From: an uncultured Hyphomicrobiales bacterium
GTDB taxonomy: Bacteria > Pseudomonadota > Alphaproteobacteria > Rhizobiales > Ancalomicrobiaceae
DNA length: 64,000 nucleotides
NCBI GenBank assembly: GCA_903930435.1
Contig: CAIYYN010000029.1
Span: 1-64,000, forward strand
Reading direction: 5' to 3'
Below the pieces are notes generated by a model. That model saw nothing but the letters and a program-made list of their open reading frames with translations. It made no database searches and was not told the DNA's origin. This document shows, piece after piece, positions 12,949 through 21,820 of the stretch. The stretch's first letter is position 1, and every line of letters starts with the position of its first letter. A program made the translations under genes and the position numbers.

Positions 12949-13851
12949 TTACCTCTTGATCAGCTTCAGTTTTTCACGGACCTCGGCAGGGCCTATGACC
13001 CGCGAACCCATGTTTTCGGCAATTGTGACAGCACTTTCCACCAGCGCGCCGTTCGTCGCAAGCACGCCTTTCGACATCCAGATGCAGTCTTCAAGGCCGA
13101 CGCGGATATTGCCACCGGCCAGAATTGCAGCAGCTGGAAAGGCACGCGCGTTGCGGCCGATCGAGAAGGCCGAGAATGTCCAGGTCTTCGGCACATTATT
13201 GGCCATTGCGAGAAACGTCAGCAGATCATCTGGCGCACCCCAGCCGATCCCCATGCACAGTTGCACCATCACCGGATCAACGATCACGCCTTCCTCGACG
13301 AGTTGCTTGGCAAACCAGAGATGCCCCGTATCGAATGCCTCGATCTCCGGGCGCACGCCGAGGGCAGTCATTTTGGCACCCATGGCTCGCAACATGGCCG
13401 TCGTGTTGGTCATCACATAGTCGCCAAGACCGAAATTCATCGTGCCGCAATCCAGCGTGCAAATCTCCGGCAACAACTCGGTCACGTGAACCATGCGCTC
13501 GGTCGCGCCCACCATGTCGGTGCCGACGGCATTTGGGGGCAGCGGTGTCTCCACGCCGCCCAGTACCAGATCGCCGCCCATGCCAGCCGTCAGATTGATG
13601 ATGACGTCGGTATCGGCGGATCGAATGCGGTCAACCACCTCGCGATAGAGGGCGGGGCTCCGACTCGGTGCGCCTGTCTCGGGATCGCGCACATGGATGT
13701 GAGCGATTGCAGCGCCCGCCTTTGCTGCTTCAACGGACGCTTCCGCAATCTGTTTCGGTGTCACGGGAACATGATGCGAGCGCGAAACCGTGTCGCCAGC
13801 GCCGGTGACGGCACATGTGATGAAGACATCGCGGGTTGGGGAAAGTGTCAT
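12949..13851 (-). CDS. BKACE-family beta-keto acid cleavage enzyme, probably 3-dehydrocarnitine cleavage
   Basis: Members of this family (formerly DUF849) use acetyl-CoA to split beta-keto acids into acetoacetate and a new acyl-CoA. The 300-residue protein has the zinc-binding HIH at 51-53 in [12 protein letters not shown], plus [10 protein letters not shown] and [16 protein letters not shown], the family C-terminal signature. Its neighbour is an L-carnitine dehydrogenase fused to a thioesterase, so the substrate is predicted to be 3-dehydrocarnitine, giving betainyl-CoA and acetoacetate. ATG 13851 is preferred; an upstream in-frame ATG at 13908 would add an unconserved 19-residue leader. It is the first gene of the operon. 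Confidence 0.9.
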
Positions 13852-14004
13852 GACATAGGTCCCGAGCTGGAATTCAATGGTGAGGATCACCGATCGCGAC
13901 GCAATCAACTATCCTCATGGCGACATTCGTTGGTGCGGTCCGCTGTCACGCCCTGTCTCTTGGTTTTCCCGATGCGCACTTGCGTCCCCCATGTTGCCGC
14001 GATG

Positions 14005-15498
14005 CTATCCCGGTGAGAACATTGGAAAACTGACACCGAGGGACCACGCGAGGATCAGACCAAGAGCGATACCGACTGCGAGCGGTGACTGTGTCCGACG
14101 TCCGGTCCATCCGCCCATCAGGCCGAAGATCACAAAATAGAGGATGATGACCGGAATGATGATCAACAGGAAAAACAGACGTTTGAAGTCGAATGCAACT
14201 GCTACGCCTAGTGAGGCGAGAAACGCGCCTCGCGCCAGAAATACGCGCCAATAGGAAGCCATTCCACCGTTCAGGGCGAGGCTATCGGCGAGCATGTAGG
14301 GCACTGCGCCAACCGCAATCGCCGCGATGATCGGCAAGCGTGCGGCATTCGGCATGAATGAGGCGACATAGCGATCAAGCGCGCCACCAAAGACGAAGAT
14401 CCCATAAGCCGCGAGCGCAACAGTCGGAATCCAGGCGATGGGGCCGATCTTCACGCGCCGCCAGACGAGGATACCAAGCGACAGAACGCCGAACACAAAC
14501 AGATGTACGGCGAGATAGTCTGCGACGAGGACCGGTAAAAATCGGGTGTCAACAAGCGTTAGCACGAGTGGCGTCACGGCTGCGGGCAGCAGAACGGCCA
14601 TCAGAAAGGTCCGGACATCAATCGTGGGCGGCTGCTCCACCCGACGGGGCAACAGGCTGGCCAGCGGCCAGGCGAGCAAGACGATCCCGGCCAACAAGCA
14701 CACAATCCAGAGCCCGGTGGCGGCAACAGGACCGCTGCTCGCCCGTCCGAAGACCTTGTCGAGCCAATCCCGGGCCTCAAGGAGTGCCGTTGGCGAATAG
14801 AGCACGCCGACGTGTTCAACGCTTGGTGCGACCACGGTTCGCCTGCCGCCCGTTGTCGCGGGATCGCCGATGGTATCGCCCTCCCGCGCAGCGGGATCGG
14901 TCAGTTGCGCATTGTGGACTGCATTGGCGCGCAGATAAGACTCCCACTCACCCGTTATCATCAGCAGGTTTCGCGGCCCAGACGTCGTAACCGCTTCTGA
15001 AAACATCGAAATGGTCACAGTCGCGGCGACCCTCGGGTCCTCGATCGCCTCACGCACGATGATATCGGTCGCCATGGAATGACCGAGCAACGCGACGCGC
15101 CCATCCACGCCCGGCAGTGCTAATGCTGCATCGATGACGCGGGTCAGTTCATGCTTCAAGAGCTGGGTGGTTCCGTCGACGCGCGTGACATCACCCGACA
15201 TTGGCTTCGGATTGCGGCCATGGCCTTCGAGATCGTATGAAACAGCGACGTAACCGGCTTGCGCCAGCGTCAGCGCATAGGCTTCCATGAGTTGTCGCGA
15301 CCCGGCGAAGCCATGCGCGATGATGACCGTCGGTGCCTTTGCAGGCCCTGGACGTTGATAGACTGTTGCCGGTGTCGTGCCCACCATCAGTGGCGTGATC
15401 GTCAGCCCGGAGCGCGCTTCTTCCAGATGCCAGATCCCGAGAGCGGTCAGCACAAGCCCGACGATTGCTGCCAAAATCCGCTGTATCATTGCGCGCAA
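14005..15498 (-). CDS. Membrane-anchored alpha/beta hydrolase
   Basis: A 497-residue protein. An N-terminal membrane segment (about residues 6-22) is followed by an alpha/beta hydrolase domain with VIIAHGFAGSRQL (oxyanion region, 58-70), YDLEGHG and the nucleophile elbow LLGHSMA (S141), with a likely late His in SVEHVGVL. The C-terminal half (about residue 250 onward) is eight or so hydrophobic segments. TTG 15498 has GGAG 6 nt upstream, while the inner ATG 15489 does not, so I chose TTG. It is 57 bp downstream of the bchG homologue on the same strand and probably co-transcribed. The substrate is unknown; an ester or lipid at the membrane is plausible. Confidence 0.75.
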   Translation of the reverse strand: MRAMIQRILAAIVGLVLTALGIWHLEEARSGLTITPLMVGTTPATVYQRPGPAKAPTVIIAHGFAGSRQLMEAYALTLAQAGYVAVSYDLEGHGRNPKPMSGDVTRVDGTTQLLKHELTRVIDAALALPGVDGRVALLGHSMATDIIVREAIEDPRVAATVTISMFSEAVTTSGPRNLLMITGEWESYLRANAVHNAQLTDPAAREGDTIGDPATTGGRRTVVAPSVEHVGVLYSPTALLEARDWLDKVFGRASSGPVAATGLWIVCLLAGIVLLAWPLASLLPRRVEQPPTIDVRTFLMAVLLPAAVTPLVLTLVDTRFLPVLVADYLAVHLFVFGVLSLGILVWRRVKIGPIAWIPTVALAAYGIFVFGGALDRYVASFMPNAARLPIIAAIAVGAVPYMLADSLALNGGMASYWRVFLARGAFLASLGVAVAFDFKRLFFLLIIIPVIILYFVIFGLMGGWTGRRTQSPLAVGIALGLILAWSLGVSFPMFSPG

Positions 15499-15555
15499 CC
15501 AAGGCTCCGAGGGCGAAAATTCATGACTACCAACCGAGACGCCCCATGGCAGCCA

Positions 15556-16467
15556 TCAGGTTCCGGCCAACAGTCGCACGGCGACCGCACTCGCCATCAT
15601 GCCAAACACATACAGCGGTACACCGAAGCCGCTGTACCAAAGGGCATCCTTGATCGGGTCCCGCAACAGGCGGCGCATCATCAGCAACTGGCCCGCCAAT
15701 AAAGCCGCGACAATCCCGGCCTCGAGAAAGCCGCCCCAGAACGTGACCAGCCCGATCACGATCACTTGCGGCAAAGCCATGATGATGCATGCGGCAAGCG
15801 CCGCGCGGTCAGCGCCGAGAAGCACCGGCAGGGAGTTGATCCCCATTTCGCTGTCGCCCTTGATTGCCTTGAAATCATTCAGCGTCATGATGCCATGGGC
15901 GCCGGCACCATACAGCAGTGCCAGGACCAGCACCTGCGTGGGCGGCAAGGCACCGCCCAGCATCGCCGCCGCGCCCGTGATCCAGGCAAGACTTTCATAG
16001 GAAAACCCGCAAGCCGCATTGCCGAGCCAGCCATTGCGCTTCAATCGGAATGGTGGCGCGCTGTAGGCCCAGGCGAGAATGAGACCGATGATTGTCGCTA
16101 TCGTCACCCATTGGCCGAGCGTGGCCGCCACGAGCAGCGAAAGCGCGCTCCAGATACCCGCTATATAAAGGCCCCATTTTCCCGGAATACGACCCGAGGG
16201 AATGGGACGGTGTGGTTCGTTGATGGCGTCGACATGCCGATCATACCAGTCGTTGATCGCCTGACTCATCGCACAGACAAGGGGACCGGCAAGGATCATC
16301 CCGGCCAGAACCGTGTACCAGTTTATCAGGATCGGAACACCGGACGAGACGACGCCGCAGGCAAATGCCCACATGGGCGGAAACCAGGTGATCGGTTTCA
16401 ACAGTTCGAGCACTGCGGATGGGGCAGGGTAGGCCGAGGCGGATTGACTGTTTGTATCGATTGTCAC
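15556..16467 (-). CDS. bchG: (Bacterio)chlorophyll synthase homologue, UbiA prenyltransferase family
   Basis: BchG esterifies bacteriochlorophyllide with geranylgeranyl or phytyl diphosphate in the membrane. This 303-residue protein closely follows BchG as I know it from purple bacteria: LLKPITWFPPMWAFACGVVS (22-41), the first Asp-rich motif NDWYDRHVDAINEPHRPIPS (72-91), WAYSAPPFRLK, and the second motif GIMTLNDFKAIKGD (192-205), with about eight membrane helices. These residues separate BchG/ChlG from UbiA and COX10. No other photosynthesis gene (bchP, bch, crt, puf) is in the 64 kb, so it is an orphan copy here. A changed substrate cannot be excluded. Confidence 0.85.
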   Translation of the reverse strand: MTIDTNSQSASAYPAPSAVLELLKPITWFPPMWAFACGVVSSGVPILINWYTVLAGMILAGPLVCAMSQAINDWYDRHVDAINEPHRPIPSGRIPGKWGLYIAGIWSALSLLVAATLGQWVTIATIIGLILAWAYSAPPFRLKRNGWLGNAACGFSYESLAWITGAAAMLGGALPPTQVLVLALLYGAGAHGIMTLNDFKAIKGDSEMGINSLPVLLGADRAALAACIIMALPQVIVIGLVTFWGGFLEAGIVAALLAGQLLMMRRLLRDPIKDALWYSGFGVPLYVFGMMASAVAVRLLAGT

Positions 16468-16598
16468 GTCTGAGGTCCCGCCGTTGCCGGTTCAGTGTCC
16501 CAAAGTCATCGTGAGAGGTCAAGCTTGACCACCCGACATGGCGCCTAGCGACAAGACGCCATTGACGCGGCGGACGTCCCTTGATCCCGCGAAACCGC

Positions 16599-17465
16599 CT
16601 AAACCTTGTAGCGCCGCTCCAGTTCGTCGAATTTCGGCTTGTCGACGGCTTGTTGCCTGACTTCGAACCCGGCCAGCCTATCAGCCACCGAGGCCAGCGA
16701 TCCTGTTTCAAGCAGGGCAGCCAGAACGTCATGTGATGCCTTCAACGCAGCCTGAAGCGAGGCGTTGGCATAGAGCACGCAGCCAAAGCCGAGCTTGGCA
16801 AAGGTTGCTTGACCCAGTTCGGGCGTAAGGCCGCCGAACACGATGTTGGCCACCTGCGGCACGGACAGTGAGCGGGCAATCTGTTCGAGTTCGTCGGCGG
16901 ATTTGGGCGCTTCGACAAAGGTGACATCTGCTCCGGCCTCGATCATCGCTCCTGCCCGGTCAATTGCCGCCTGCAAGCCCAGAACGGCGCGTGCGTCGGT
17001 GCGGGCGACGATTTGCAGATCACCGTCCCGGCGGGTGTCCACGGCGGCCTTGATCTTGGCGAGCATCTCCTCAAGCGGGACGACGTCCTTGCCGGAAAAG
17101 TGTCCGCATTTCTTCGGGAACACCTGATCCTCGATCTGCAATCCTGCCGCACCGGCCCGCTCGAGCACCCTCACGGTCCGCACCATGTTGACGGCATTGC
17201 CAAATCCGGTATCGGCATCGACCAGCAATGGCAGTGCGACAGCGTCGGCGATGGCCGCGACATGATTGGCGATCTCCGTCAGCGTCGTGAGACCGATGTC
17301 GGGAGCGCCAAGAAACATGTTGGCGACACCCGCGCCGGTGACATAGACCGCTTCATACCCGAGGTCCTCAATGACCCGCGCGAACAAGCCGTTGGCGGCA
17401 CCGGCAAGGATCGGAGCCTCGCGTCTGGCCAGCATCATTTTCAGGGCAGTTGTCGGCCTAGCCAT
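16599..17465 (-). CDS. Isocitrate lyase / PEP mutase superfamily protein (first copy)
   Basis: A 288-residue TIM-barrel lyase of the superfamily that includes 2-methylisocitrate lyase, 2,3-dimethylmalate lyase, oxaloacetate hydrolase and PEP mutase. The Mg-binding LLVDADTGFGN (80-90) and the catalytic loop PKKCGHF (117-123) with its active Cys120 are present, so a C-C or C-P lyase with intact chemistry is likely. The substrate cannot be read from sequence. The gene starts 15 bp after the last ABC transporter gene and is probably in the same transcript. A second family member (20906-21820) begins the run, so the two bracket the transporter. Confidence 0.85.
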   Translation of the reverse strand: MARPTTALKMMLARREAPILAGAANGLFARVIEDLGYEAVYVTGAGVANMFLGAPDIGLTTLTEIANHVAAIADAVALPLLVDADTGFGNAVNMVRTVRVLERAGAAGLQIEDQVFPKKCGHFSGKDVVPLEEMLAKIKAAVDTRRDGDLQIVARTDARAVLGLQAAIDRAGAMIEAGADVTFVEAPKSADELEQIARSLSVPQVANIVFGGLTPELGQATFAKLGFGCVLYANASLQAALKASHDVLAALLETGSLASVADRLAGFEVRQQAVDKPKFDELERRYKV

Positions 17466-17480
17466 GCGGTTTCCTTTGCC

Positions 17481-18269
17481 TCATTTGGAACGATGTGTCA
17501 GTCGCCGACTGAGATGCAGCATCGCCATATTCGCCACGATTGCGACAATGACGATCATCGTGATGACGGACGTCGACAGGAGGACATTGTGCTGGGCTAT
17601 CCCGCTGACGAGCAGGAACCCGAGCCCTCGCTGTGACGAGAACATCTCGCCAATCAGCACACCGAGCAGGCTCAGCGAAAAGCTGATCCTGAGGCCTCCG
17701 ACGATGTCCGGCAGGCAGGCGGGCAGCAATACCCAGAGCATGGTCTGGCGACGGGACAGACGCAGGACCCGCGCCGTGCGGACCAGGACAGGTGGCAGGC
17801 TTCGTACCGCCCCAAGCGTGAACAGGACGACGGGGACGAGCCCGTGCATGACGCCGAAGGCGATCTTTGCAGAAATACCTAGCCCGAACACCAGCAGCAC
17901 GACGGGATAGAGCGTCACCTTCGGGATTGTATAGAACCCGGACAGGATCGGTTCTGCGACGTCGCTGGCGAACGGTCGGGTGCCGAAGATGAGGCCCAGC
18001 GCAAGTCCAGCCACCGCCGAGATTGCGAAGGCGATCAGAAACGCCTCAAGCGTCGCTGCTGCATTGTCCCAGAACAGCGATGTTTGCAGGAGATTGACGA
18101 GATAGGCGAGCGTCGGCAGCGGTGGTGCGACGGCAATACCAGATGTCCAGACGCCAACCGCCTGCCAGAGCAGGAGCATCAGCGCCAGCAGAATGAGAGC
18201 GTCAACCGGACGTGCCCGAGCTGGCGCTGCCTGCTTATAGGTTGGCTCATTGACGGCGCTGGTGCTCAT
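17481..18269 (-). CDS. ABC transporter permease, NitT/TauT type (second permease)
   Basis: The inner-membrane permease of a binding-protein-dependent importer of the SsuC/TauC/ThiX class. It has about six membrane segments and the EAA-like loop (RVLRLSRRQTMLWVLLPACL). Start chosen at ATG 18269, which overlaps the stop of the upstream permease by ATGA; the earlier frame start at 18305 would overlap it by 40 bp. 262 residues is normal for the class. The operon order is lyase, binding protein, ATPase, permease, permease, lyase. The transporter would need both permeases as a heterodimer. Confidence 0.88.
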   Translation of the reverse strand: MSTSAVNEPTYKQAAPARARPVDALILLALMLLLWQAVGVWTSGIAVAPPLPTLAYLVNLLQTSLFWDNAAATLEAFLIAFAISAVAGLALGLIFGTRPFASDVAEPILSGFYTIPKVTLYPVVLLVFGLGISAKIAFGVMHGLVPVVLFTLGAVRSLPPVLVRTARVLRLSRRQTMLWVLLPACLPDIVGGLRISFSLSLLGVLIGEMFSSQRGLGFLLVSGIAQHNVLLSTSVITMIVIVAIVANMAMLHLSRRLTHRSK

Positions 18270-19027
18270 CCCTTTGACCGACGGCGCCTGAGCCGCCCCT
18301 CCCACGCATAGAGGACGCCGTTGGCGACAACGGCTGTCAGCAAGACAAACAACATGATTCCGTACATGGCCCGGTTATCAAAGCTCTGATAGGCAAAGGA
18401 AATTGCAAAACCGAGGCCGCTGCCGGAGAGGATGAATTCACCGGCGATGACGCCGATCAGGGAATAACTCAGCGCCAGTTTGAAGCCGCTGAACAGGCGC
18501 GGCAACGCCGACGGCAAGATGATCCACCAAAGAGTGAGCGCCGGACCGAGACGCTGGATGCGGGCCAGTTTCAGGAGCACTGGCGGAACGCTATCCAGCC
18601 CTGAGAGTGTGCTGATGATGACCGCCGGCATCGCCGACAGGATGCCAAGTACCACCAGAGGGGCCTTGCCCAACCCAAGCAGGGCGACGAGCACGGGATA
18701 AAAGATGAAGGTCGGAACCGAGTAGTAGGACGCCAGCAGCGGATCGACCATATCGCGTAAGCGTGCAATCCGATGGATCACCGCGCCAGACAATGTGCCA
18801 ATTGCGACCGAGAGACCAAAGGCGAGGGCGATCGTCGAAAACGTCTGCACCATGCTCTCGTTCAAATCGCCCGAGCCAATGTGTTCGACCATCGATGCGA
18901 TCATGTCGCTTGGCGGAATGATCGAGTTTGGATCGACATAACCCGCACGGCACCCGAACTCGAGCAGCAGGATGGGGCCGGCCAAGACAACACTGCGCAC
19001 GATGAGCAGGGCAAGTGCACGCGTCAT
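18266..19027 (-). CDS. ABC transporter permease, NitT/TauT type (first permease)
   Basis: 253 residues with about six hydrophobic segments and the conserved permease loop (LARIQRLGPALTLWWIILPS) that contacts the ATPase. It overlaps the ATPase gene by 4 bp (ATGA), showing translational coupling. Its partner is the permease at 17481-18269. The two sequences are paralogous but distinct, which is typical of taurine/thiamine-precursor-like importers with two different membrane subunits. The substrate is unknown. Confidence 0.88.
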   Translation of the reverse strand: MTRALALLIVRSVVLAGPILLLEFGCRAGYVDPNSIIPPSDMIASMVEHIGSGDLNESMVQTFSTIALAFGLSVAIGTLSGAVIHRIARLRDMVDPLLASYYSVPTFIFYPVLVALLGLGKAPLVVLGILSAMPAVIISTLSGLDSVPPVLLKLARIQRLGPALTLWWIILPSALPRLFSGFKLALSYSLIGVIAGEFILSGSGLGFAISFAYQSFDNRAMYGIMLFVLLTAVVANGVLYAWEGRLRRRRSKG

Positions 19028-19830
19028 GATGCGCGCCCCATGGTTTTGAGCGATTCTTCGCGGAGCGATGACCAGAGGCGGGCGGTCAGCGCGCCGAAAT
19101 TCGGATCCGAGACGACCCGGCTGTCGCGGTCACGGGGCCAACCTGTTTCGACAAAATCGATGAACCGCCCAGGCCGCGCACTCATCACGCCGACACGGTC
19201 CGACAGCATGGCTGCTTCGTCGAGCGCGTGCGTGATGAGCAGGATCGTTGCGCCGGTTTCCCGCCAGAGCCGCAGCAATTCGTCGCCCATCAGCAGGCGT
19301 GTCTGCTGGTCGAGCGCACCGAAGGGTTCGTCCAGCAATATCAGGCGCGGACGCAGCACCAGTGTTCGGGCAATGCAGACCCTTTGCCGCATGCCGCCAG
19401 ACAGTTGTGCGGGGAAATGATCTATAAACTGCGCCAGACCCATGAAGCTGACGGCGTGCTCGACCCGCTCCTTGATTTCCGCGCTCGGCAGGCCAGACGT
19501 CCTGAGGCCAAACTCAACGTTCTGCCGAACGCTGAGCCAGGGCATGCTGGAGTCTTCCTGGAAGACGACGCCAATGCCGGGAGGCACTTCGCCGTTCAAG
19601 TCTGAGCCTTCGAACCTGACGCTGCCACTCGTCGGACGTGCGACGCCGCACAGCATGTCCAGCAGGGTCGACTTGCCACAACCTGAGGGGCCGACGACTG
19701 AAACGAATTCCCCCCGCGCCAGCGTCAGATCGATTGGGCCGACAGCATGGACAGCCGGTGGCCCGTCAAAGCGACGCACCACCCCCTTCAACTCCACATG
19801 CGGCTCGGTCACGGACATGGACACGGTCAT
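19024..19830 (-). CDS. ABC transporter ATP-binding protein, NitT/TauT type
   Basis: The ATPase that powers the adjacent importer. Walker A GPSGCGKST (47-55), Q-loop FQEDSSMPW (90-98), signature LSGGMRQR (143-150), Walker B LILLDEP (163-169) and H-loop LITHALDEA are all intact in 268 residues. It overlaps the binding-protein gene and the first permease gene by 4 bp each, so the transporter genes are tightly coupled. Close to SsuB/TauB/NrtD-like ATPases in form. Confidence 0.93.
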   Translation of the reverse strand: MTVSMSVTEPHVELKGVVRRFDGPPAVHAVGPIDLTLARGEFVSVVGPSGCGKSTLLDMLCGVARPTSGSVRFEGSDLNGEVPPGIGVVFQEDSSMPWLSVRQNVEFGLRTSGLPSAEIKERVEHAVSFMGLAQFIDHFPAQLSGGMRQRVCIARTLVLRPRLILLDEPFGALDQQTRLLMGDELLRLWRETGATILLITHALDEAAMLSDRVGVMSARPGRFIDFVETGWPRDRDSRVVSDPNFGALTARLWSSLREESLKTMGRAS

Positions 19831-20822
19831 TGAATGGACTGGAGTTCAGCTGGCAGATACGAGGTGTCGATATACTTCGGCCAATCGACGTCGCCCTTCT
19901 GCTGTCCGGTAATTTGCAGGCCCTCGACCATGTGGTTCATGCCGACATAATCCAGACGGCCATCGCTCCAGTAGTTTTCAGCGACGAGCCGATGGATATG
20001 CGCCCGAAACAGATCAACATTCGGGTTATTGTACGCCTTGGCGGTAATCGCGGCGGCCTCGTCCGGGTGCTCCAGCATGTAGCGCAGGCCATCACGCCGC
20101 GCGAGGATCAGGCCCTTGATGATATCAGGATGAGCCTTCGCATACTCTGCCGTCGTGATCATCACGGTCTGCATCATGCGCGGGTCCATCACGTCGCGCA
20201 CCATGAAGAGCGGCTTCACGAGTTCCGAATTCTGCGCGAGCGCCAGTTCATCGGAGAAGGCCGCATCGACTGCGCCACTGCCGACCGCCGACAGGTTGGC
20301 ACCAAGATCACCCGCCGGTACGAGCTTGACCTGTTGCGCAGTCAGGCCGTTGGCCTTCAGTGCCATCAGGATCACCATGTTGCTGACCGAACCGGGCGAC
20401 GTATAGGCGATCTGCTTGCCCGTCAGATCCTTGATGCCGGAAAGGGTTGATCCCTTCTTCACGACCCACATCTGGTCAGACACGTTCAGCACACCGCCGC
20501 CGATAATAATCAGCTTCTGGCCCGCATTGATCGCCTGCACCGCCGCCGACAGGGCTACTTCGCCAAAGGGAATACCGCCCGCGAGGGTGTTGCGAACCGC
20601 GGTGCCGCCGCCAGCCGCCGTGAGGATGCCGGTTACATCGACGCCGTTGCTTTTGAAAAAGCCTTTGTCCATAGCAACCGCATAGGGAACGCCGTAGAAC
20701 TGGCCGCCCCAATGCGTGACGGTGATCGTTTCGGCTTCCGCCTTGAGAGGCCCTGCCGTAAACGCCGACAGTGCCAGGCCGACGAACAGCCCAAATCGTA
20801 CAAGCCTATTTCCGGTAAACAT
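19827..20822 (-). CDS. ABC transporter substrate-binding protein, NMT1/ThiY-like
   Basis: The periplasmic receptor of the importer. 331 residues with a signal peptide (MFTGNRLVRFGLFVGLALSA, cleavage predicted after AEA near residue 30). The body is of the NMT1/SsuA/TauA class: THWGGQFYGVPYAVAMDKGFFK, the family opening in which the ligand usually binds near the first strand, and GKQIAYTSPGSVSNMVI. Family members bind sulfonates, taurine, nitrate, riboflavin or pyrimidine precursors; nothing in the sequence fixes the ligand. An 83-bp gap separates it from the upstream lyase gene. Confidence 0.88.
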   Translation of the reverse strand: MFTGNRLVRFGLFVGLALSAFTAGPLKAEAETITVTHWGGQFYGVPYAVAMDKGFFKSNGVDVTGILTAAGGGTAVRNTLAGGIPFGEVALSAAVQAINAGQKLIIIGGGVLNVSDQMWVVKKGSTLSGIKDLTGKQIAYTSPGSVSNMVILMALKANGLTAQQVKLVPAGDLGANLSAVGSGAVDAAFSDELALAQNSELVKPLFMVRDVMDPRMMQTVMITTAEYAKAHPDIIKGLILARRDGLRYMLEHPDEAAAITAKAYNNPNVDLFRAHIHRLVAENYWSDGRLDYVGMNHMVEGLQITGQQKGDVDWPKYIDTSYLPAELQSIQ

Positions 20823-20905
20823 GGCTTCCCCCTGTTTTTATAATTCGTTCCGTCCGTCTTGTGCGGATTTGTTGATTGACGTGAGGCTCTTGGCGATCAC
20901 GCGCG

Positions 20906-21820
20906 CTAGTCCTTGCGGCTGTCCGAGAGGCCATGCCGCTTTTCAAAGGCGTGGACCGCCGGGAATCCCATCAGCGTGTTCATGTCGGAGAAGGCCATCA
21001 TCGGTGCCTCGCTGCCAGTGCCGATACCTGCTGACTTCAGACGACCGTAGACCTTCTGCAGCGCGCCAGCCGCTGTCAGGAAGCCGGAACCGGGATAAAT
21101 GGCGATCTTGAATCCCATCGCACCCAGCTCAGACGCTGACAGATACGGCGTACGACCACCCTCGACCATATTTGCAAGCAGGGTTGCGCCCTTGAAGGTT
21201 TCGGCCACACGACGAAGCTCTTCGAGGCTTTCCGGGCTCTCGACAAAAAGCACATCGGCTCCAGCCTCCAGAAATAGCTCGGCACGTCGGAGCGCTGCGT
21301 CGAGGCCTTCGGCATAGCGTGCGTCGGTGCGCGCGACGATCAGGAAATCGCTGTTTGGGCGTGCTTCGACGGAAACGCGGATCTTTGCTGCGGCGTCTGC
21401 TGCCGGGATGACGCGGCGAAACTCCGTATGGCCGCACTTCTTCGGGAATTCCTGATCTTCGAGCTGGATTCCCGATGCGCCAGCAGCAGCATAGCCGCGT
21501 ACCGTGCGGTCAACGTTGAGCAACCCGCCATACCCGGTGTCGCCATCCGCGATGAATGGCAAATTGGCCGCTCCGGCGATGCAGCGCACGCGATCGAGCA
21601 TCTCGGTAAAGGTCGCGGTCCCGGCGTCGGCAACACCGAGCGCAGATGCGACGACACCGTAGCCGGTCATATACAGCGCTTCAAAACCGGTCGCGGCGGC
21701 CACCCGGGCTGAAATACCATCGTAGACGCCGGGAAGCGCCAGACATCCATCTCGTTGCAAAAGTGCGCGCAAGTGTGCCGGTTGAGCCAAGCCGTCCTCC
21801 CGTTCGTTTTTGTTTTGCAT
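20906..21820 (-). CDS. Isocitrate lyase / PEP mutase superfamily protein (second copy)
   Basis: The first gene of the minus-strand run. 304 residues with PFIADGDTGYGG (88-99, metal binding) and EFPKKCGHTEF (124-134) with the catalytic Cys. It resembles the copy at 16599-17465 in fold and motifs but differs in many positions, so it is a paralogue or separately acquired enzyme and not a recent duplicate. Reactions in the family include cleavage of 2-methylisocitrate, 2,3-dimethylmalate and oxaloacetate. Its promoter should lie in the 305-bp gap shared with the divergent SDR gene. Confidence 0.85.
   Translation of the reverse strand: MQNKNEREDGLAQPAHLRALLQRDGCLALPGVYDGISARVAAATGFEALYMTGYGVVASALGVADAGTATFTEMLDRVRCIAGAANLPFIADGDTGYGGLLNVDRTVRGYAAAGASGIQLEDQEFPKKCGHTEFRRVIPAADAAAKIRVSVEARPNSDFLIVARTDARYAEGLDAALRRAELFLEAGADVLFVESPESLEELRRVAETFKGATLLANMVEGGRTPYLSASELGAMGFKIAIYPGSGFLTAAGALQKVYGRLKSAGIGTGSEAPMMAFSDMNTLMGFPAVHAFEKRHGLSDSRKD

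Follow-up and report, generated by a model that had tools for sequence, protein, structure and literature searches.

A membrane alpha/beta hydrolase linked to phototrophy and encoded beside a relocated bacteriochlorophyll synthase gene: a possible prenyl-tail-removing counterpart of BchG

The chlorophyllases, dephytylases and pheophytinases of plants and cyanobacteria are serine-type alpha/beta hydrolases tied to chlorophyll metabolism, and cyanobacterial chlorophyllases such as CyanoCLH and OaCLH are described, in the excerpt available, as taking bacteriochlorophyll a (PMC8392590). BchO is listed as a putative hydrolase of the photosynthesis cluster (PMC6052148, in part), a 2021 review uses the term 'bacteriochlorophyllase' in general, the enzyme described in use being cyanobacterial (PMC7957641, in part), and a 2022 review of the terminal enzymes mentions chlorophyllase from plants and algae only, in the sections accessible to us (PMC9066304). 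Indeed, across the accessible parts of the open-licence literature that we searched, no purple-bacterial gene or enzyme is reported to remove the prenyl tail of bacteriochlorophyll, and the protein that concerns us here goes unnamed. That protein, which we call HYD, is a membrane alpha/beta hydrolase encoded directly downstream of bchG, the gene for (bacterio)chlorophyll synthase and so for the final step in making bacteriochlorophyll, in an uncultured Hyphomicrobiales bacterium of the Ancalomicrobiaceae (assembly GCA_903930435.1); by the window we mean the whole stretch analysed, positions 1 to 64,000 of the forward strand of contig CAIYYN010000029.1. HYD resembles the plant and cyanobacterial enzymes in type, but it is 497 residues long, has a C-terminal eight-helix domain and is alphaproteobacterial, the cyanobacterial enzymes being compared by description only; it may likewise be likened to BchO, a putative hydrolase in bacteriochlorophyll metabolism, with the difference that HYD has an added membrane domain. 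Its partner is like described BchG proteins (TIGR01476, PRK07566) in its full-length match and its position in the tree, and differs from them in its location, away from the photosynthesis cluster and forming a two-gene unit with HYD. In short, BchG is an ordinary member of its family in an unusual place, and HYD is a phototrophy-linked alpha/beta hydrolase whose membrane domain is unusual. We tentatively suggest, with somewhat less than even confidence, that HYD may remove the prenyl tail from bacteriochlorophyll or bacteriopheophytin, a substrate that we infer, and would thus work in the direction opposite to BchG.

The link to phototrophy is strong, and in the samples that we studied HYD is found mostly in alphaproteobacteria with bacteriochlorophyll genes. 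In the order sample, HYD was present in 22 of 297 genomes (E 1e-20), and every one of the 22 had a bchG over cut-off; in a set of 199 order genomes it occurred in 17 of the 46 with bchG and in none of the 153 without (Fisher P 1e-12). A within-family comparison, chosen to lessen the effects of shared ancestry, covered nine families holding both bchG-positive and bchG-negative genomes: all 11 HYD genomes were bchG-positive, and HYD was found in 0 of 25 bchG-negative genomes (exact stratified P 1.2e-4). The class sample of 385 genomes contained 11 with HYD and 26 with reaction-centre genes (Photo_RC), eight of them in common, which amounts to 8/26 Photo_RC-positive against 3/359 Photo_RC-negative genomes (P 2e-8), and in the phylum sample, whose background rate of phototrophs was not measured, Photo_RC was present in all ten of the HYD genomes (10 of 398). 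In addition, we scanned named genomes and obtained at least 531 relatives, of which we kept the best 80, these being the closest to the query and no random draw; Photo_RC was found in 49 of the 50 genomes tested among them, and the fiftieth (L068), a 3.0-Mb metagenome-assembled genome with no Photo_RC match, has bchG adjoining HYD. Among the hosts are Bradyrhizobium sp. BTAi1, Rhodobacter sp. SW2, Yoonia vestfoldensis SKA53 and Stappia stellulata. The samples overlap, so that the counts partly depend on one another: the window's own genome (G000) is counted in the order, class and phylum samples alike, it and G001 and G324 stand in more than one of them, and some named loci (L numbers) are the same as sampled genomes (G numbers), such as L083, which is G423, and L075, which is G257. 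That this uncharacterised esterase was met with almost exclusively in bacteriochlorophyll-based phototrophs makes it a promising candidate for the enzyme lacking so far in pigment recycling.

The arrangement seen in the window recurs elsewhere. In ten genomes (the window's own, G101, G279, L068, L070, L071, L072, L074, L083 and L084) HYD is the next gene after bchG on the same strand, at a distance of -4 to 82 bp as measured between the bchG stop and the beginning of the HYD match. The flanking genes, judged by eye, vary among L068, L070, L072, L074 and L083/L084, so the pair stays joined amid changing surroundings. In the HYD tree, which holds part of the 80 named loci and in which the placements of L150 and L158 (wrong frame, very long branches) are disregarded, the bchG-adjacent members fall on both sides of a well-supported (starred) branch. 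In the BchG tree the BchGs of both groups are close, so that the pairing had two separate origins or HYD was swapped for another next to bchG; each of these would fit selection for the pairing. HYD also lies within or beside photosynthesis clusters (L076, L095, L131, L111, L177, L178, L179 and G443), and it appears in the order bchH-bchG-HYD with pufLM nearby in G101, and in the order ppsR-HYD-tspO, with bchI, bchD and bchO, in G004. A bciA-like gene lies no more than 1.4 kb from HYD in eight genomes. We take this gene to encode an 8-vinyl reductase, an assumption backed only by its confinement to bchG-positive genomes (24 of 46, against 0 of the 14 bchG-negative genomes tested); a comparison with NCBIfam gave no equivalog for it, and a search of Protein Data Bank (PDB) sequences gave no name either. 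In all, 15 of the 80 named loci have bchG, a bch/crt/puh gene or the bciA-like gene in their stored flanks. The conserved linkage of bchG and hydrolase to which the original prediction looked therefore does recur, in ten genomes, but most HYD genomes do not show it.

The identity of the window's BchG was proposed from its motifs and is borne out by family models and tree. The protein matches NCBIfam PRK07566 over its full length with 409 bits (cut-off 313) and TIGR01476 (BchG) with 342 bits (cut-off 212.3), and at 190.5 bits it misses the cut-off of the ChlG equivalog TIGR02056 (436.45). A tree made by a quick method, which comprised the window protein, 50 other BchG proteins and two UbiA-family paralogues of its own genome as a distant outgroup, with no cyanobacterial ChlG among its rows, places it inside alphaproteobacterial BchG; only BchGs with loci were used (30 of the 46 from bchG-positive genomes of the order sample, plus later ones), and the duplicates L032 and L083 were left out. 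On these grounds the gene is a genuine bacteriochlorophyll synthase gene. Within the tree it belongs to a starred clade of twelve rows, which takes in all ten BchGs directly followed by HYD, and because G070, G106 and G210, three genomes from the same family, have BchGs that sit elsewhere, at about 58% identity to it, the gene was probably acquired laterally. As for a phage origin, BchG had no match in 50,697 phage records. The BchG of another locus, L181 (G100:C1:3932000-3951900), is 75% identical to that of the window, with HYD about 18 kb further on; no other cluster marker was found in that 20-kb stretch, only 2 kb of which lies on one side of bchG, and this BchG lineage may be prone to departures from the cluster.

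The genome from which the window comes (4.63 Mb, 98.8% complete) carries, on another contig (C20), two Photo_RC genes at 118600-120263, which are pufL and pufM by their order, and four Oxidored_nitro genes of bchN/B and bchY/Z type at 84542-116889, all surrounded by a long photosynthesis cluster with its open reading frames present; the names of other genes on C20 were given by eye, from translations and order. The description of bchG as an orphan therefore applies to its neighbourhood, which is without photosynthesis genes, and not to the genome. On C20, bchP and pucC (78106-80713) are separated by a gap of 440 bp from ppsR and aerR (81154-83541). For Dinoroseobacter shibae the order is given as bchP-pucC2-bchG-ppsR-ppaA in the excerpt available (PMC6052148). 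The pucC-ppsR gap on C20 holds no bchG and no decayed remnant of one, just chance-level fragments of 12-13 residues, and of the three UbiA-family genes in the genome only that of the window scores as BchG (411 bits in the genome scan, the next 38), so that the idea of a second bchG elsewhere could be dropped, the other two being far under the BchG cut-offs. Because the slot is empty and this is the only BchG found, we conclude that bchG has moved: it is a relocated, intact gene outside its usual place in the cluster, as the original prediction had allowed in speaking of a split-off part. The profile matches to pufL/M and to genes of bchN/B/Y/Z type also dispose of another early suggestion, a relic in a non-phototroph, in which the pair would be what is left of a photosynthesis cluster since lost. 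The examined neighbours in the window, which include no photosynthesis gene, would agree with such a relic, but the long cluster on C20 is present and open and the reading frames of bchG and HYD are both intact, so for this genome the suggestion is refuted and keeps next to no probability. The bciA-like gene of the genome sits on yet another contig (G000:C17:99857-100852, 66% identity), so that its bacteriochlorophyll genes are seemingly spread over at least three contigs, and a separate BchO-type gene, named by eye and by position, lies beside bchI/bchD on C20 at 103782-104720.

What, then, might HYD do? It belongs to the alpha/beta hydrolase superfamily by its fold and its putative Ser-acid-His triad, passing the Pfam cut-offs of general families only, namely Hydrolase_4 (39.2 bits, cut-off 27), Abhydrolase_1 and DLH, and it reaches no NCBIfam cut-off, the best for the window protein being a lactonase model at 41 bits against 400. 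The AlphaFold model (mean predicted local distance difference test score, pLDDT, 88.7) consists of one N-terminal helix, the alpha/beta domain and eight further helices. Ser141, Glu186 and His229 are invariant in 98 sequences and placed after strands in the model, and for this reason they are likely to form the catalytic triad. The hydrolase domain matches a lipase (7q4j/7q4h; Z 23.6 over 200 residues) and also feruloyl esterases; the chlorophyllase structure 8fjd (code from PMC11878206, in part) is not among the structure matches listed for HYD, and the window protein has no match to the chlorophyllase Pfam family PF07224 up to E 0.1. For comparisons within the family we used an alignment of HYD from 19 of the 22 order-sample genomes, leaving out L055, L058 and L059 as near copies of L056. 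One homologue, at L052 (G134:C55), was reported with a TAG stop within the matched stretch, and HYD relatives in viral contigs were sought and none was found. The loop charges of HYD mostly alternate, in a pattern under which the hydrolase domain would face the periplasm, with the N-terminus inside and the C-terminus outside. Two loops, those joining helices 5-6 and 6-7, give no decisive signal, and we regard the catalytic domain as probably periplasmic.

Such a protein might instead serve the photosynthetic membrane as an esterase or lipase for some other substrate, be it a phospholipid, a carotenoid ester or an exported lipid, with a part in remodelling the intracytoplasmic membrane. We consider this possible, at a lower probability than tail removal. 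A fold of the general lipase/feruloyl-esterase/PETase type and a predicted periplasmic domain are both what this explanation would lead one to expect, and at E <=0.1 the Pfam families PETase and PAF-AH are touched, weakly, by 13 and 15 of the 19 aligned members respectively. However, the direct partners of HYD, bchG and the bciA-like gene, are both tetrapyrrole genes, and in a survey by eye of neighbours at 73 of the 80 named loci no lipid gene recurred among the frequent ones, most of the neighbours being unnamed.

The membrane domain is the more unusual half of the protein. Modelled alone with AlphaFold it folds confidently (pLDDT 88.9), and it has one standout fold match, to SpdC (6u0o; Z 9.4 over 185 residues, root-mean-square deviation 3.9), with the next at 4.8; since a Z under about 13 may reflect a common arrangement in helical bundles, we treat this resemblance as suggestive only. 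SpdC is a CPBP/CAAX-protease-like protein. A Foldseek search with the domain gave no match at E 0.001, a search of PDB sequences gave no relatives up to E 10, and none of the membrane-domain sequences of the 19 members matches a CPBP/CAAX-protease Pfam family up to E 1, the HMMER filters dropping most matches above E ~0.1. Any likeness between SpdC and HYD lies in the fold of this domain, and HYD is without the Pfam match that would go with it. To our knowledge, neither SpdC nor the plant BCM proteins carry a soluble hydrolase domain. Plant BCM1 and BCM2, which are CAAX-type by annotation and do not rescue CAAX-protease-deficient yeast, are described in the excerpt available as scaffolds that keep the formation and degradation of chlorophyll in balance (PMC7083845), and we compare them with HYD by analogy, with no claim of homology. 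By that analogy HYD could be mainly an assembly or quality-control factor, with the membrane domain as a scaffold on which the making of pigment is balanced against its degradation, a role to which the SpdC match and the plant precedent would both lend themselves. We think it unlikely: the same match lies in the range of Z that helical bundles may share, the Pfam and Foldseek searches returned nothing, and a triad conserved in 98 of 98 sequences points to catalysis. One membrane helix carries D327, Y328 and H332, each near-invariant (>=97% of the 98 sequences), and it is speculation on our part that the histidine could bind the magnesium of the pigment.

The reading that we prefer, tail removal, would run as follows. 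HYD would act on bacteriochlorophyll a or bacteriopheophytin a and release the phytyl or geranylgeranyl alcohol (dephytylation), the hydrophobic pigment or its tail would be kept at the membrane by the eight-helix domain, BchG would re-esterify the resulting bacteriochlorophyllide, and the cycle might serve pigment turnover, salvage or quality control. The strongest points in its favour are the pairing with the ester-forming BchG, the intact triad and the precedent of alpha/beta hydrolases of the chlorophyllase type. A fuller version, in which HYD is a membrane dephytylase whose helical domain perhaps has a CAAX-protease-like fold as in SpdC and which forms a turnover cycle with BchG as a two-gene unit, seems to us rather doubtful. 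Since the occurrence of the hydrolase family follows that of phototrophy, the original prediction of a make-and-break pair now has strong circumstantial backing; a difficulty for it is that HYD is predicted to face the periplasm.

Several observations weigh against tail removal, and the heaviest are that predicted side, three hosts that lack phototrophy genes and the many unlinked loci. UbiA-family synthases such as BchG act at the cytoplasmic side of the membrane, whereas the hydrolase domain of HYD is predicted in the periplasm, two loops being indecisive. Three of the 11 HYD genomes in the class sample (G426, G530 and G558) are without Photo_RC and without bchG over cut-off, and because their HYDs retain the triad, HYD either can persist once phototrophy has gone or serves some other purpose. 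A congener of G530, G430, is a phototroph, so that the HYD of G530 is perhaps a leftover from before phototrophy was lost. At the G530 locus (L174), where no reaction-centre gene or bchG was found, HYD is nevertheless divergent from a bciA-like gene. Conversely, 29 of the 46 bchG-positive order genomes do without HYD, which makes it accessory. No neighbour of the kinds counted above appears in the stored flanks (<=10 kb, often shorter) of 65 of the 80 named loci, many of them from Rhodobacteraceae, when the weak aerR match of L125 (31%) is treated as none. PpsR-type sites occur upstream of HYD at 8 of 70 loci against 41 of 718 control genes (P 0.07), the 70 being the 80 named loci less seven that are bchG-adjacent and three with too little upstream DNA; such sites are not clearly enriched and, as none of the TGT-N12-ACA type lies near the window's pair, we set them aside as proof of co-regulation. 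The chlorophyllase family PF07224 is matched by just two of the 19 members, weakly (best E 9e-4). Lastly, four plasmid records, from Palleronia and from cyanobacteria, contain proteins more distantly related to the hydrolase domain, away from photosynthesis genes. Those of the Nostocales (AP018183.1 161001-161645, AP018309.1 and AP018208.1) are annotated hypothetical and about 35% identical to HYD residues 23-250, and in the Nostoc carneum plasmid stretch the relative sits among transposases, with no photosynthesis neighbours; that of Palleronia sp. LCG004 (NZ_CP136760.1 393843-395276) is 37% identical, again with no photosynthesis neighbours in the stretch viewed.

The three genomes without puf and bchG, together with the two plasmid stretches just described, would also suit a housekeeping role apart from pigment, the association having come about through shared ecology, co-inheritance or lateral transfer. 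This is the least probable of the explanations that still stand, for within the nine alphaproteobacterial families of the stratified comparison HYD occurred only on the bchG-positive side, and adjacency to bchG occurs on both sides of the starred branch in the HYD tree. Ranked by fit, tail removal comes first, another esterase of the photosynthetic membrane second, a scaffold third and no pigment role last.

The features of the locus are collected in Table 1, and the coordinates there agree with the early description of a bchG lying 57 bp ahead of a membrane hydrolase gene. The HYD start codon is preceded by GGAG at a spacing of six bases. We found no promoter-like site in a scan of 13800-16800 and no terminator-like site in the gap between the genes, the one weak terminator-like match (15613-15625) falling within the 3' end of bchG. 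The examined neighbours are on the same strand and non-photosynthetic: downstream of HYD lie BKACE and carnitine dehydrogenase, and upstream are a gene of the PEP-mutase/isocitrate-lyase family and an ABC transporter of NMT1/THI5 type. In the stretch 16599-21820 (minus strand) the transporter set (binding protein, ATPase and permease) has the PEP-mutase/isocitrate-lyase family gene flanking it, and a second gene resembling this one, judged by its translation, lies at 20906-21820 (minus strand). Read-through from this set into the bchG-HYD pair could occur.

Table 1. Coordinates, in the window, of bchG, HYD and the proposed parts of HYD
Feature	Position	Strand	Remarks
bchG, (bacterio)chlorophyll synthase	15556..16467	-	303 aa, GTG start; open reading frame intact; family models and tree
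Intergenic stretch, 57 bp (bchG stop to HYD start)	15499..15555	-	
HYD, membrane alpha/beta hydrolase of a phototrophy-associated family	14005..15498	-	497 aa, TTG start; Pfam, alignment, co-occurrence
Alpha/beta-hydrolase domain of HYD, residues 28-255	14734..15417	-	AlphaFold model; fold match; predicted periplasmic
Ser141, proposed nucleophile, GHSM motif	15076..15078	-	98/98 sequences
Glu186, proposed catalytic acid, just past strand 178-183	14941..14943	-	98/98 sequences; putative role
His229, proposed catalytic histidine	14812..14814	-	98/98 sequences; putative role
C-terminal eight-helix membrane domain of HYD, residues 255-497	14008..14736	-	AlphaFold

If HYD does remove the tail of bacteriochlorophyll, then the turnover and recycling of this pigment would be open to genetics in carriers of the gene, for example Bradyrhizobium sp. 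BTAi1 and Rhodobacter sp. SW2. Even with a different substrate, an unnamed membrane hydrolase so closely tied to phototrophy points to a component of anoxygenic photosynthesis that has yet to be catalogued.

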